From Methylophaga sp. OBS4 (GTDB lineage: Bacteria > Pseudomonadota > Gammaproteobacteria > Nitrosococcales > Methylophagaceae): a stretch of DNA of 49,896 nt. The position numbers were made by a program, and so were the translations under genes. The notes beneath the pieces are model-generated. The model did not search any database. It was not told the DNA's origin and saw only the letters and a list, made by a program, of their open reading frames with translations. The stretch's first letter is position 1; every line of letters starts with the position of its first letter. Of the stretch, positions 11,510 through 15,281 are shown piece after piece. Where the stretch lies: the NCBI RefSeq assembly GCF_026319305.1, contig NZ_JAPDMV010000023.1, positions 1 through 49,896 of the forward strand, in the 5' to 3' direction.

Positions 11510-12196
11510 GTGGCAAACCTGCTGATTATTGATGATGATGTTGAACTGGCAGAGTTGTTTCAGGACTATCTGCAACAGGAAGGTTTCAACGTCGAAACAG
11601 TCTTTAACGGCCGCAACGGACTTGATGCCGCGTTGAGCGGCAGTTTTGATCTGGTCATCCTCGATATGATGCTGCCGGATATCAAAGGCACCGATATTCT
11701 GGTTCAGATCCGGCAGCAAAGCCTGATTCCGGTGCTGATGTTTACCGCCAAGGGGGACGATGTTGATCGCATTATTGGTCTGGAATCCGGCGCTGATGAT
11801 TATGTTCCCAAACCATGCACACCGCGGGAGCTGGTTGCGCGGATTCGTGCCATTTTGCGGCGCACCGATAACAGCTTTGGCAGTGATATGGATAAAGTCA
11901 TCAAAAATGGCCCCTTGCAGCTCTGGACAGAAAAACGCAAAGCCGTCTGGTTTGAGCAGGAACTCGATCTGACCAGCACCGAGTTCAATCTGCTGGAAGC
12001 GCTGGCAAGGCAGGCCGGTCAGGTTGTGAGCAAAAATGAATTATCCGAACGTGCACTGGGGCGCCCGTTAGCTCGTTTTGATCGCAGTATAGACGTTCAT
12101 ATGAGCAGTATTCGTCACAAACTGGGGCAGCAGGCTGATGGCCATCTTTATATCCAGACCATTCGTGGTCAGGGTTATCAATTAATTAAAGAGTAA
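11510..12196 (+). CDS. cpxR: CpxR-like OmpR-family response regulator
   Basis: A 228-residue two-component regulator. The receiver domain (1-118) has the acidic cluster IIDDD (D8-D10), phosphoacceptor D52 in VILDMMLP, T79 in MFTAKGD and K101 in DYVPKPCTP. The winged-helix DNA-binding domain (about 130-228) has the ELDLTSTEFNLLEAL and VSKNELSERALGRPLARFDRSIDVHMSSIRHKLG elements typical of CpxR. It starts with GTG at 11510 after a GAGAGAGGG purine run. Two bases separate it from cpxA. The identity is supported by the exact CpxR-box upstream and the divergent CpxP-like gene. Confidence 0.9.
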   Translation: MANLLIIDDDVELAELFQDYLQQEGFNVETVFNGRNGLDAALSGSFDLVILDMMLPDIKGTDILVQIRQQSLIPVLMFTAKGDDVDRIIGLESGADDYVPKPCTPRELVARIRAILRRTDNSFGSDMDKVIKNGPLQLWTEKRKAVWFEQELDLTSTEFNLLEALARQAGQVVSKNELSERALGRPLARFDRSIDVHMSSIRHKLGQQADGHLYIQTIRGQGYQLIKE

Positions 12197-12198
12197 TC

Positions 12199-13563
12199 AT
12201 GGGGCGCTTATTCTGGAAATTCTTGTTCAGCTTCTGGCTGACCTTATTACTTGCCGGTATCAGCGTCGGCACCCTGGTCTGGTTGAAACAGGCGGCTGAT
12301 AACGAAGAAGACTTTAGCAAAGTCAGATTAATTGATCGGCATGGCTTGCCTTTTGTGTCGGTCGCTGCAGATATTGCAGAACACGGCGGTTTGCCGGCGC
12401 TAATCGCATTCTTACAACAGCTCGACAATTCACCGATGCCTTCTGTACTGGCCATCAATGAAAACGGCGAAGACATCCTCAGCCGCGAAGTGGATGCCGA
12501 TGCCCTATCACAAGCCAGAGAATGGGTTGAAATGGGCAAACGCCGCGTAGTCAGGCTCATCCCGTCGCAGCAAGGCAATCTGCTATTGTTTGCACCGATG
12601 CCATCGGAGCAGCAAGTCTTCAGCCAACAACCGAGAAAGCGCCCGCCGCCGCCTCATGCCAGACATTGGCCATTAATATTACTGTTTGCCTCAGGCTTTA
12701 TAGCCAGTCTGATGTTCAGTGCGCTGCTGGCCTGGTATTTCACCCGCCCTATCCGCAGCTTGAAACAGGCGTTCAATGCTGTCGCCCAGGGCAAACTCGA
12801 TACCAGAGTCAGTCCAGAGATGGGCCATCGTCAGGATGAACTTGCCGAACTGGGGCAAAATTTTGATTATATGGCTTCTCAAATCAGCAGTCTGGTTAAC
12901 GGTCAGCGGCGCTTATTACACGATGTTTCTCACGAACTGCGTTCGCCTTTAGCACGGATGCAGGCTGCCATCGGAATTGCCCAGCAGCAACCGGACAAGG
13001 TGGAGCCGACATTGCAGCGTCTGGAACGCGAAGCGCAGCGAATCAGCGATTTGGTTGGTGAACTATTGTTATTGTCTCGTATGGAAACCGGCGTCAATCA
13101 TCGTCACGACAGCAAAGTCGATCTCACCGTATTGCTGGATGAAATAGTTGAAGATGCCCGCTTTGAAGCCGCCAGCAAACAAATTGAAATTATTTATCAA
13201 TCAGCTGAAAACATTCAGATTCACGGTCAGCAGGAGTTGTTGCATCGCGCCATTGAAAATGTATTACGCAACGCAATCAAATTCAGTCATCCCGGTAGTG
13301 AAGTCAAAGTGACTATTCACAAAGACAACGCCCAAAAACAACTCACCATCAGCGTAGAAGATCAGGGACCCGGCGTGGCGGAAGCCGAACTGGAGAATAT
13401 TTTCCAGCCTTTTTTCCGGGGTAAAGCCGAGCAGCGGCGCGATAGTATTGGTCTGGGGCTTACCATTGCACAACGGGCGGTTGAAGCTCACCGGGGCCAT
13501 ATTGAAGCCCATAACCGCAGTGCAGGCGGTTTACAGATCATCATCATCCTGAATCTCGTTTAA
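12199..13563 (+). CDS. cpxA: CpxA-like sensor histidine kinase
   Basis: A 454-residue membrane kinase. TM1 spans about 8-29, a short periplasmic sensor domain about 30-157, TM2 about 158-180, HAMP 181-235, the dimerisation/phosphoacceptor helix HDVSHELRSPLARMQ with H245, and the ATP-binding domain with the N box (IENVLRNAIKFSHPG), G1 (DQGPGV) and G2 (GLGLTIAQRAVEAH). It would phosphorylate CpxR on envelope stress. The periplasmic domain is somewhat shorter than in E. coli and carries a Pro-rich juxtamembrane patch (RKRPPPPHARH). It is cotranscribed with cpxR, with only 2 bases between them. Confidence 0.9.
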   Translation: MGRLFWKFLFSFWLTLLLAGISVGTLVWLKQAADNEEDFSKVRLIDRHGLPFVSVAADIAEHGGLPALIAFLQQLDNSPMPSVLAINENGEDILSREVDADALSQAREWVEMGKRRVVRLIPSQQGNLLLFAPMPSEQQVFSQQPRKRPPPPHARHWPLILLFASGFIASLMFSALLAWYFTRPIRSLKQAFNAVAQGKLDTRVSPEMGHRQDELAELGQNFDYMASQISSLVNGQRRLLHDVSHELRSPLARMQAAIGIAQQQPDKVEPTLQRLEREAQRISDLVGELLLLSRMETGVNHRHDSKVDLTVLLDEIVEDARFEAASKQIEIIYQSAENIQIHGQQELLHRAIENVLRNAIKFSHPGSEVKVTIHKDNAQKQLTISVEDQGPGVAEAELENIFQPFFRGKAEQRRDSIGLGLTIAQRAVEAHRGHIEAHNRSAGGLQIIIILNLV

Positions 13564-13641: not shown

Positions 13642-13660
13642 GATAATGATTATCAATATC
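13642..13660. promoter_or_regulatory. Fur box upstream of the HTH regulator
   Basis: GATAATGATTATCAATATC matches 17 of 19 positions of the Fur consensus (GATAATGATAATCATTATC). Within a slightly shifted frame it contains a perfect 17-bp palindrome, TTGATAAT-g-ATTATCAA. It ends 12 bases before the ATG of the HTH gene, so Fur-Fe2+ binding would block transcription or initiation. Iron repression of the downstream gene is therefore expected. Confidence 0.7.
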
Positions 13661-13672
13661 AAATAAGACCTT

Positions 13673-14614
13673 ATGCAATTTTCCCAATACATTCAGCAAT
13701 CACGCCGTAAACACCTCCTCACTCAAAGCGAACTCGCCGAACAAATGGCCTGCCGTTTCGCCGAGTTGAGCGAACTGGACAGTAACACTATCAGCCGCTG
13801 GGAGCGGGGGCAGCATACCCCCGCCATTGACCGGCAGCGTTTATGTGTTGAATTTTTTGGCGACAACCCGGTTGAGAAACTGCCGTTCCACCTTGCTCAT
13901 ACATCCGCGGTAACCCCTGCTCAGAATCAGGCCCGGCAACGTTTGCTCAAACAGCTGTCGCAACAACGTTTTAATACACTGGTCGGCGGCTTGCCTGCAT
14001 TTTCACCCGACTCACAGCTTGAAAGATGCCGTCACGGCTCAGAGGAAGCAGCTTATATTGAGTTTATATCGACACTGCGCAATCGACTCAGTCCGGAGCA
14101 AATGCCGCTTACAGCAGCTGTAATTATTGACTGGCTGCGGCATCCCGGTGCTTATCTATGGTTAATAAAACATCAATCACACCCGCTCCTGCACTGTTTG
14201 TTTGTGCACCTTAAACCCGCTGTTTACCAGCAATTGCTCTATCAACATCGCGAAGAATCAACATTAACGGCAGATGACCTGGCCTCGCCCGATGAAAACA
14301 GCTGTCTGTATATTATCAGTCTCTACAGCACGGGAAACGAGACGTTGGTGGATTTGTATCTGCACCTGTATCAGCACTGCTTTCAACATCGGGGCCGATT
14401 GCAGTCATTGGGTATGCTGGCAACGCATAATGATGATATAAAACTCGGCCGCCACTTAGCGATGCAAGTCAAACAAACCAGTCCGGCATTAGCCCACGGC
14501 ACCGTGCAATATCTGGCAAAGCGCCACACCTGGGCCACGCTGACCGGTCATATCAGTCAACTGCTGCTGATGCCTGCAACACGCCTGTCGATACAAACCA
14601 GCACTATCAGCTAG
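13673..14614 (+). CDS. XRE-family helix-turn-helix regulator with uncharacterised C-terminal domain
   Basis: A 313-residue protein. The N-terminal HTH (about 5-68) reads IQQSRRKHLLTQSELAEQM...SNTISRWERGQHTP, a classic XRE/Cro recognition pattern. The C-terminal 240 residues are rich in Leu/His/Gln helices with no motif that I recognise. A Fur box sits just upstream and a second one just past its terminator, which suggests a role in iron-responsive control, although its targets are unknown. The RBS is weak (AAGACC region before the ATG at 13673). It has no partner gene on its strand in the immediate vicinity apart from the candidate small RNA. Confidence 0.75.
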   Translation: MQFSQYIQQSRRKHLLTQSELAEQMACRFAELSELDSNTISRWERGQHTPAIDRQRLCVEFFGDNPVEKLPFHLAHTSAVTPAQNQARQRLLKQLSQQRFNTLVGGLPAFSPDSQLERCRHGSEEAAYIEFISTLRNRLSPEQMPLTAAVIIDWLRHPGAYLWLIKHQSHPLLHCLFVHLKPAVYQQLLYQHREESTLTADDLASPDENSCLYIISLYSTGNETLVDLYLHLYQHCFQHRGRLQSLGMLATHNDDIKLGRHLAMQVKQTSPALAHGTVQYLAKRHTWATLTGHISQLLLMPATRLSIQTSTIS

Positions 14615-14652
14615 GCATAAAATAAAAGAAATTTATTTTACTATGCCTTTTT
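14613..14652 (+). terminator. Intrinsic terminator of the HTH gene
   Basis: AGGCATA (14613-14619) plus AAATAAA pairs with TTTATTT plus TATGCCT (14642-14648), with a 3-base bulge and a 5-base loop, then TTTT. The stem begins within the stop codon. It separates the HTH gene from the Fur box that follows 5 bases later. Confidence 0.7.
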
Positions 14653-14656
14653 AATC

Positions 14657-14675
14657 GTTAATAATAATCATTATT
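14657..14675. promoter_or_regulatory. Second Fur box, upstream of candidate small RNA
   Basis: GTTAATAATAATCATTATT matches 16 of 19 Fur-consensus positions. It is followed by an A/T-rich stretch containing TATTAT, which could serve as a -10. No annotated-size gene starts for 200 bases; instead a strong terminator follows at 14759. This points to a Fur-repressed short transcript rather than control of msrB, which lies beyond that terminator. Confidence 0.6.
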
Positions 14676-14681
14676 ATTTGC

Positions 14682-14787
14682 AACTGAAGGAATGCTTGAT
14701 GACATTCATGGAGGAACGACATCAACACTCCCTCTCTCTAAAGTCTGAAAACCGAGTTGTTGCCAGCATTCTGCTGGCAACTTTTTT
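14682..14787 (+). ncRNA. Candidate Fur-regulated small RNA
   Basis: The unit consists of Fur box (14657-14675), possible -10 (TATTAT at about 14672-14677), roughly 100 bases of unstructured-looking sequence, and a strong intrinsic terminator at 14759-14787. The size and architecture are those of RyhB/PrrF-type iron-sparing RNAs. The single-stranded middle has ACGACATCAACACTCCCTCTC at 14716-14736, of which the ACGACAT piece also occurs in the RyhB core; this resemblance is short and may be chance. The 5' end is a guess from the -10. An alternative reading is a 35-codon ORF beginning at 14699. Confidence 0.42.
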
Positions 14788-14806: not shown

Positions 14807-14882
14807 ATCAGGATCAATACTGATCTTTTGTGCATATTTGCATACAATGAACTTGTGCAAAACAGGTTATTGATGCTGAAAC

Positions 14883-15281
14883 ATGTCCGACAAAATTGTG
14901 AAATCCGACTCTCAATGGCGAGAGCAGCTCACCGAAGAGCAATTTTCTGTAACCCGCCACGCTGCTACTGAACCGCCGTTCTCAGGTGTCTATGTCGATC
15001 ATCATGATCAAGGCATCTATAAGTGTGTCTGTTGTCATCAGCCCTTATTCTCTTCCGACGACAAGTTTGATTCGGGTTGCGGCTGGCCCAGTTTTTCTGC
15101 GCAAATCGAGCAGGGTGCCGTCACGCATCACGCTGATTACAGTCATGGCATGGATCGAACAGAAGTGCGGTGCCGGCATTGTGATGCGCACCTGGGACAT
15201 ATCTTCGACGACGGCCCAGCTCCCACCGGTTTACGCTACTGCATCAATTCGGTAGCGCTGGATTTCGATGGCGAAAAGTGA
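14883..15281 (+). CDS. msrB: Peptide-methionine (R)-S-oxide reductase MsrB
   Basis: A 132-residue repair enzyme that reduces methionine-R-sulfoxide in proteins. The zinc ligands are the Cys pairs in [11 protein letters not shown] and [14 protein letters not shown], and the core motif is [10 protein letters not shown]. The catalytic Cys is in [10 protein letters not shown] near the C-terminus, with [10 protein letters not shown] before it. The length fits the family. The start is ATG 14883. A possible -10 (TACAAT) is at 14843-14848. The gene overlaps the GIY-YIG gene by 14 bases. Confidence 0.95.

Follow-up and report, generated by a model that had tools for sequence, protein, structure and literature searches.

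A predicted Fur-repressed small RNA gene upstream of msrB in one clade of Methylophaga

Introduction

The stretch of DNA analyzed here (the window) comprises 49,896 nucleotides of a contig of Methylophaga sp. OBS4. Between a gene encoding a helix-turn-helix (HTH) protein and msrB, it harbors a Fur box, a short segment, and a terminator. What does this unit encode? An initial reading of the letters made without database searches (the sequence-only reading) proposed an iron-regulated small RNA (sRNA). This proposal now appears largely right, since box, promoter, RNA, and terminator are conserved together and the predicted targets are mostly iron enzymes. From the comparison of sequences, we consider it very probable that positions 14682-14787 are the gene of a trans-acting, Fur-repressed, iron-sparing sRNA that is new and lineage-specific. 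The genomes having the unit are called carriers below. The features of the locus are the following:

11510..13563, plus strand: response regulator and histidine kinase (kinase domains), conserved left of the sRNA unit
14649..14654, plus strand: -35-like element TTTTAA (3/6), 17 bp before the -10 element, overlapping the T-run of the upstream terminator
14657..14675, plus strand: Fur box (consensus match, 16/19), covering the promoter spacer and the -10 element
14672..14677, plus strand: -10-like element TATTAT (5/6)
14682..14787, plus strand: predicted small RNA gene of ~106 nt, its 5' end (14682) predicted from the promoter; matched exactly at 14682-14787 by covariance model R1, which was built without the Fur box and has the window among its 10 training sequences
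14686..14734, plus strand: 5' hairpin GA.GGA/UCC.UC with a variable inner arm, the outer stem being common to 8/8 single-sequence folds
14733..14747, plus strand: seed 1, UCUCUCUAAAGUCUG, complementary to the ribosome-binding regions of rpe and edd, with one mismatch to the exact site in its own genome
14746..14757, plus strand: seed 2, UGAAAACCGAGU, complementary to the sodB leader
14759..14787, plus strand: intrinsic terminator (10-bp stem, 3-nt loop, T6)
14843..14848, plus strand: -10-like element TACAAT of a separate msrB promoter, seen in 10/10 carriers and 9/11 non-carriers
14883..15281, plus strand: msrB (peptide methionine sulfoxide reductase B; Pfam SelR, 9e-54), a neighbor outside the sRNA unit

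Layout of the locus

The Fur box GTTAATAATAATCATTATT agrees at 16 of 19 positions with GATAATGATAATCATTATC, which we take to be the consensus, and this confirms the position and the score given by the sequence-only reading. Dinucleotide shuffles lead one to expect 0.02 matches with at most three mismatches in the whole window. Three were found, two of which are the two strands of another box. On the minus strand at 13642-13660, 12 bases upstream of the HTH gene (13673-14614), there is a further and better Fur box (18/19), which the initial reading had not mentioned. The HTH gene may be another Fur-controlled regulator; no relative of it was found in the regions read around the sRNA unit in the 9 other carriers.

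The -10 element is TATTAT, TATCAT, or TACTAT in all 9 loci (of 10) that are readable at the promoter, and the hexamer 17 bp upstream starts with TTG in 8 of these 9. The window is the exception (TTTTAA): its own -35 element is poor (3/6) and is overlapped by the T-run of the upstream terminator. The latter, which had been assigned to the HTH gene, is a real AU-rich hairpin (-9.7 kcal/mol), though it was not listed by the pattern scan. At the other end of the unit, the hairpin described as a perfect 9-bp stem followed by six T is indeed perfect and has its six T (14782-14787), but the stem is of 10 bp (14759-14768 pairing with 14772-14781 around a 3-nt loop). Among the 9 other carriers, one, G014, differs in the sequence of this stem and yet retains its pairing. 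Two traits by which we define the class of Fur-repressed sRNAs are present in this layout: first, a short untranslated unit whose sigma-70-type promoter is covered by a Fur box (weak in two carriers), and second, the stand-alone nature of this unit, which ends in an intrinsic terminator of its own and contains no conserved open reading frame.

In the window, the unit is flanked on the left by the response regulator/histidine kinase pair and the HTH gene, and on the right by msrB, a GIY-YIG gene, and an ABC-F gene. The two-component pair lies on the left and msrB on the right in 10/10 carriers, with 0 to 2 other genes before the unit. There is a single match to the unit in its own genome, a 2.55-Mb draft that is 83.6% complete.

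Conservation and distribution

A DNA search identified the unit in 9 of the 23 other Methylophaga genomes (E < 1e-9). The covariance search that the sequence-only reading had proposed as a check, using model R1 (10 sequences, no Fur box), retrieved the same 10/24 genomes at 87-124 bits, and the 33 other family members searched reached ~20 bits at most. Model R1 was run over 57 family genomes with stricter filters, and model R2, which includes the Fur box, over 32. The unit is always upstream of msrB and all carriers are within one clade. As had been expected of close relatives, the pair of box and terminator is kept inside this clade, and 11 genomes outside it (G007, G009-G012, G016-G021) have msrB with readable upstream DNA and lack the unit. 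Three genomes are undecidable: the contig of G002 begins 30 bases before msrB, and G001 and G003 lack an msrB of the corresponding type. A tree built from three concatenated proteins groups the 10 carriers in one clade with G002 and G003, two genomes that are predicted to have the unit as well; the root of this tree is weak because the outgroup has the superoxide dismutase (SOD) gene only. Since all carriers form one clade, the co-occurrence tests presented below rest on few independent events.

Across the 10 genomes, the elements keep their order and spacing even where the DNA identity with the window falls to 73%. The whole set of box, promoter, RNA, and terminator is preserved while the adjoining intergenic DNA diverges. 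Even though model R1 left the Fur box out, a Fur-box-like sequence is found upstream of the unit in 10/10 carriers, with AATCATTA invariant. Its agreement with the consensus ranges from 11 to 17 of 19 positions, and is poor in G014 (11/19) and G006 (12/19). A scan for the core pattern across a genome collection of 84,980 species returned only 7 contigs, all from Methylophaga and including M. sulfidovorans and M. aminisulfidivorans. A mobile origin of the unit was rejected, as there were 0 matches among 72,556 plasmid and 50,697 phage records (E 0.01).

Outside the clade, G010 has a 78-nt short form (L088 5984-6061; G010:C1:894483-894560) directly before an ABC-F gene. Its Fur box agrees at 14/19 positions; it keeps UCUCUCU and lacks AACCGAGU, and the sodB leader of the same genome lacks ACTCGGTT. 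It scores 34.7 bits with model R1 (E 3.8e-4), and its score with model R2 is by construction, as it is part of that model. Among the hits examined for sister-clade counterparts with the R1, R2, and PrrF models, it was the only credible one. The other weak hits examined (16 + 4 + 11 loci, a minority of such hits) corresponded to coding stretches, to a Fur box or a terminator belonging to a protein gene, or to unrelated stretches between a box and a terminator. A DNA query with the G010 form gave short partial matches only in other genomes, up to ~40 bases.

Other arrangements of a box and a terminator were observed further away. Loci L244 and L248 (G038 and G039, same order, other family) have a different unit made of a Fur-box-like sequence, ~95 nt, and a GC-rich terminator, which is possibly a Fur sRNA of that family. 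The non-carrier G018 has, in L245 (G018:C54:6604-6733, minus strand), a Fur-box-like palindrome followed by ~80 nt and a strong terminator.

Predicted structure of the RNA

The core of the RNA, CUCCCUCUCUCUuAAAUCUGAAAACCGAG, is nearly invariant and predicted to be unpaired, between the 5' hairpin and the terminator. In the alignment, the stretch CTCCCTCTCTCTtAAaTCTGAAAaCCGAG is nearly invariant, GA.GGA near the 5' end is invariant, and the inner arm of the hairpin is variable. In all 8 single-sequence folds, GA.GGA/UCC.UC closes the 5' hairpin, the core is unpaired, and the terminator is formed (z from -2.4 to -4.5), and the segment after the Fur box folds better than shuffles (z -2.5). As the outer stem is almost constant, column-wise covariation is weak (both partners are changed in 1/17 pairs). 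The predicted structure rests on the repeated single-sequence folds and on the terminator of G014, whose sequence changed while its pairing was kept.

Predicted targets

The sequence-only reading had suggested searching for targets among the mRNAs of iron proteins. Such a search predicts sodB as a target in 10/10 carriers, rpe in 9/10, and edd in 7/10. One Fe/Mn-SOD gene was found per carrier, except in G022, which has two copies. The sodB leaders of the carriers have in common TTAGGAGA and, at 30-36 nt upstream of the ATG, ACTCGGTTA, with TTTCAC between the two in 9/10 carriers, the exception being the window's genome. In these leaders, ACTCGGTT is perfectly complementary to AACCGAGT of the sRNA, where G008 has one change, and the pairing is extended by TTTTCA and the ribosome-binding site. 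The site ACTCGGTT is present in 10/10 carriers versus 2/10 of the non-carriers taken into the test, which are those having a SOD gene and readable DNA upstream of msrB (Fisher p 0.0007, ignoring kinship). Outside the carriers, it is present in G002, G003, G011, and G012, and absent from the sodB leaders of G001, G007, G009, G010, G016, G017, G018, G020, and G021; no SOD gene was found in G019, nor in four more family genomes. Two of these non-carriers, G011 and G012 (L187, L189), have sodB leaders with the site, yet no sRNA counterpart was detected. SOD leaders with ACTTGGTT were found in G030 and G034, from another genus. When the duplex energy is computed with the core of each genome, that of sodB is reached by at most 3/300 shuffled cores in every carrier (3/300 in the window's own genome). 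The sRNA of G008, which has AAATCCGAG, forms a weaker predicted duplex with sodB (-17.9 versus -20.6 in its near relative G022).

The complement of seed 1 lies at the ribosome-binding regions of rpe, in every carrier except G004, and of edd, in 7/10 carriers. We counted 45 occurrences of TTTAAGAGAG located 0-12 nt before an ATG in the 10 carriers, which become 42 once 3 that are the antisense of the sRNA locus are dropped. The reversed-pattern control gave 12. In the 11 non-carriers, pattern and control were both found 6 times, and in the undecidable G001, G002, and G003 the pattern occurs 0, 3, and 2 times and the control 0, 0, and 1. The 42 sites in carriers precede rpe (9), edd (7), the genes of encapsulin ferritin (3), catalase (2), and a c-type cytochrome (2), and fabA (2), the remaining 17 being upstream of short or unnamed frames, and none of the 6 sites in non-carriers precedes a frame longer than 75 aa. 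We read 39 of these 42 sites, whereas three in G023 were assigned by their identical matched string only, and the second catalase site was counted in the same way. Names were given to one or two representatives per target by NCBIfam and Pfam, and to the others by matching first residues. Catalase was named by Pfam, and the c-type cytochromes correspond to Pfam Cytochrome_CBB3, their best NCBIfam model (methanol metabolism-related) being below its cut-off.

From one subclade to another, the rpe leaders vary in the parts outside the seed, an argument for the seed being under selection. As the sRNA of the window's own genome has CUCUCUAAAG, there is one mismatch between its seed and the rpe site. 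For the native pairs of this genome, the energy is reached by 0/300 shuffled cores for rpe and 4/300 for edd. Across carriers, the rpe energy is reached by at most 4/300 shuffled cores in 8/9 genomes and by 13/300 in G008, that of edd by 3-8 of 300, that of catalase in G015 by 10/300, and that of the cytochrome in G004 by 0/300. Encapsulin ferritin was rejected as a target: it has the seed in 3/10 carriers, but 98, 40, and 60 of 300 shuffles reach the energy. A complement of seed 1 is also found 3 nt before the ATG of fabA, which encodes no iron enzyme, in G003, G006, and G014 (L203, L213, L229), two of which are carriers.

We also screened 1131 predicted gene starts of G022 (1.14 Mb, 37%) for duplex energy with the core. 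In this screen, sodB ranks 2, rpe 3, and edd 10. A nitrite/sulfite-reductase family protein ranks 1, an FdhF/YdeP-type oxidoreductase 4, and formate dehydrogenase gamma 8. Ranks 5, 6, 7, and 9 are occupied by a sulfate-permease family protein, truA, an IS3 transposase, and an efflux-pump fragment, the gene starts of ranks 7 and 9 being doubtful. Half of the top 10 genes thus encode iron enzymes (5, or 6 if the FdhF/YdeP protein is counted) versus 2/20 random genes (Fisher p 0.026 or 0.007), in a scoring done by hand and unblinded; the random genes, each of 100 aa or more, were drawn from those ranked lower than 30. Among 357 genes (380 kb of G022), exact 9-mer complements are not enriched (53/500 shuffles reach the count); the gene count is reached by 40/500 shuffles for 10-mers and 8/500 for 11-mers in the same 380 kb. 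A third trait of the class, a conserved unpaired core complementary to the leaders of iron-protein mRNAs, is present as a prediction.

Proposed mechanism and alternatives

We propose that, when iron is replete, Fur would bind the box over the promoter and block it. When iron is short, the sRNA would be transcribed up to its terminator, and its single-stranded core would pair with the leaders of mRNAs encoding iron-using proteins, presumably with Hfq. In this model, the sodB leader would be paired by UGAAAACCGAGU together with UCUCU. The stretch UCUCUUAAAU would pair with rpe and edd at their ribosome-binding regions, and likewise, in single species, with the mRNAs of a catalase, a c-type cytochrome, and formate dehydrogenase gamma. 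Pairing to the leaders would block translation and iron would be saved.

The location of the unit, directly upstream of msrB and on the same strand in 10/10 carriers, could also suggest a Fur-controlled leader, in which the hairpin acts as an attenuator and msrB is the regulated gene. We find this very unlikely, since a TACAAT-type promoter follows the terminator in 10/10 carriers and precedes msrB in 9/11 non-carriers (not in G009 and G010), in line with the initial view that msrB does not explain the unit. Moreover, the most conserved part is the unpaired core, which matches unlinked iron genes, and the shorter candidate of G010 precedes an ABC-F gene, not msrB. It is even harder to believe that the unit encodes a small peptide, instead of or besides its role as an RNA. 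A 42-aa frame does span it in the window, but this frame has no Pfam match, and frames, starts, and lengths vary among the 10 sequences, whose 5' part has indels; the sequence-only reading rightly saw no recognized gene here. Finally, single consensus matches are weak evidence, and one could invoke a chance box next to a chance terminator, an explanation that has become close to untenable, being already refuted by the conserved order and spacing of the elements in 10 genomes.

A less improbable, though still unlikely, explanation is a conserved sRNA having another main role or lacking Fur control, the target matches being due to purine-rich ribosome-binding sites. A CU-rich core would pair with many such sites, unrelated genes also score high, and exact short complements are weakly enriched. 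However, the sodB seed AACCGAGU, whose 8-nt complement is found in 10/10 carriers, is not CU-rich, the reversed-pattern control yields 3.5 times fewer sites in carriers, iron enzymes are 5/10 of the top genes versus 2/20 of random ones (judged by hand), and a Fur-box-like sequence is upstream in 10/10. Hence, we favor a Fur-repressed, iron-sparing sRNA.

If this sRNA functions as predicted, iron shortage would turn down Fe-superoxide dismutase, ribulose-phosphate 3-epimerase (Rpe), and 6-phosphogluconate dehydratase (Edd), and in some species also formate dehydrogenase and a c-type cytochrome. Rpe catalyzes a step of the ribulose monophosphate cycle, whereas Edd belongs to the Entner-Doudoroff branch and is an iron-sulfur enzyme. 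One report describes Rpe of E. coli as a mononuclear Fe(II) enzyme (PMC8115020). Marine iron limitation would then be linked to methanol assimilation through Rpe and Edd. We give an even chance to the broader idea of a Methylophaga-specific Fur sRNA wired to one-carbon metabolism, by which the iron supply sets the flux of methanol carbon. The border of the clade, the short form of G010, and the sodB site without detectable RNA in G011 and G012 make the origin of the sRNA testable.

Comparison with known small RNAs

Neither the window nor 7 loci spanning the unit (6/10 carriers) or the G010 counterpart gave a match to Rfam 15 at gathering thresholds (0 matches). When the Fur box is included, the best Rfam match of the segment is PrrF (RF00444), with 34.7 bits (E 1.9e-4) for a cut-off of 90. 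Membership was rejected: without the Fur box PrrF is unlisted at E up to 10, which means that the score rests on the promoter. The PrrF model gave 0 matches above the cut-off in the 24 Methylophaga genomes, and 9/14 unrelated control genomes also gave matches, none above the cut-off. Membership in RyhB (RF00057) was rejected as well (14.8 bits, E 1.2, cut-off 55). The sequence-only reading had noted that the piece ACGACAT also occurs in the RyhB core. This piece, at 14716-14722, belongs to the variable arm of the 5' hairpin, and none of the 9 aligned relatives has it; it therefore carries no weight, and homology to RyhB through it was discarded. The likeness to RyhB and PrrF thus holds for the layout, which is equal, while homology is unsupported by Rfam scores below the cut-offs: the resemblance is one of layout and logic.

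Like PrrF of Pseudomonas, the Methylophaga sRNA has a Fur box over its promoter, ~110 nt, a terminator, and a predicted repression of sodB. It is single-copy in its own genome, whereas PrrF1/2 are arranged in tandem. It has in common with RyhB of enterobacteria and vibrios the Fur-repressed layout and the sodB leader, which is among the targets of RyhB and is a predicted target here; it differs by its seeds and by ACGACAT not being conserved.

Fur-repressed iron-sparing RNAs seem to originate repeatedly, without common sequence, and sodB is a repeated target. HrrF (PMC4144887) and BrrF (PMC7377471) are two such RNAs, each specific to its lineage, that have already been published. HrrF, from Pasteurellaceae, has modABC, asnA, asnC, and nrdB as reported targets (PMC4144887); compared by description, it belongs to another taxon and has other reported targets. 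The report on BrrF of Burkholderia (PMC7377471) depicts a lineage-specific low-iron sRNA acting on sodB, catalase, and central metabolism, with TCA-cycle targets, without a Fur box directly upstream, and probably co-expressed with hemP. The Methylophaga sRNA resembles it in type and in having sodB, catalase, and central metabolism as (here predicted) targets, and differs from it by its upstream Fur box and by predicted rpe and edd instead of TCA-cycle targets. Our search of the literature, which left most subscription journals outside, found no such RNA in Methylophaga or other methylotrophs, and the accessible text of a Methylophaga transcriptome paper mentions small RNAs in general terms only. 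The Methylophaga sRNA would represent another independent case besides HrrF and BrrF, this time in a methylotroph, with a sodB site and a second seed that can be read from the sequence.
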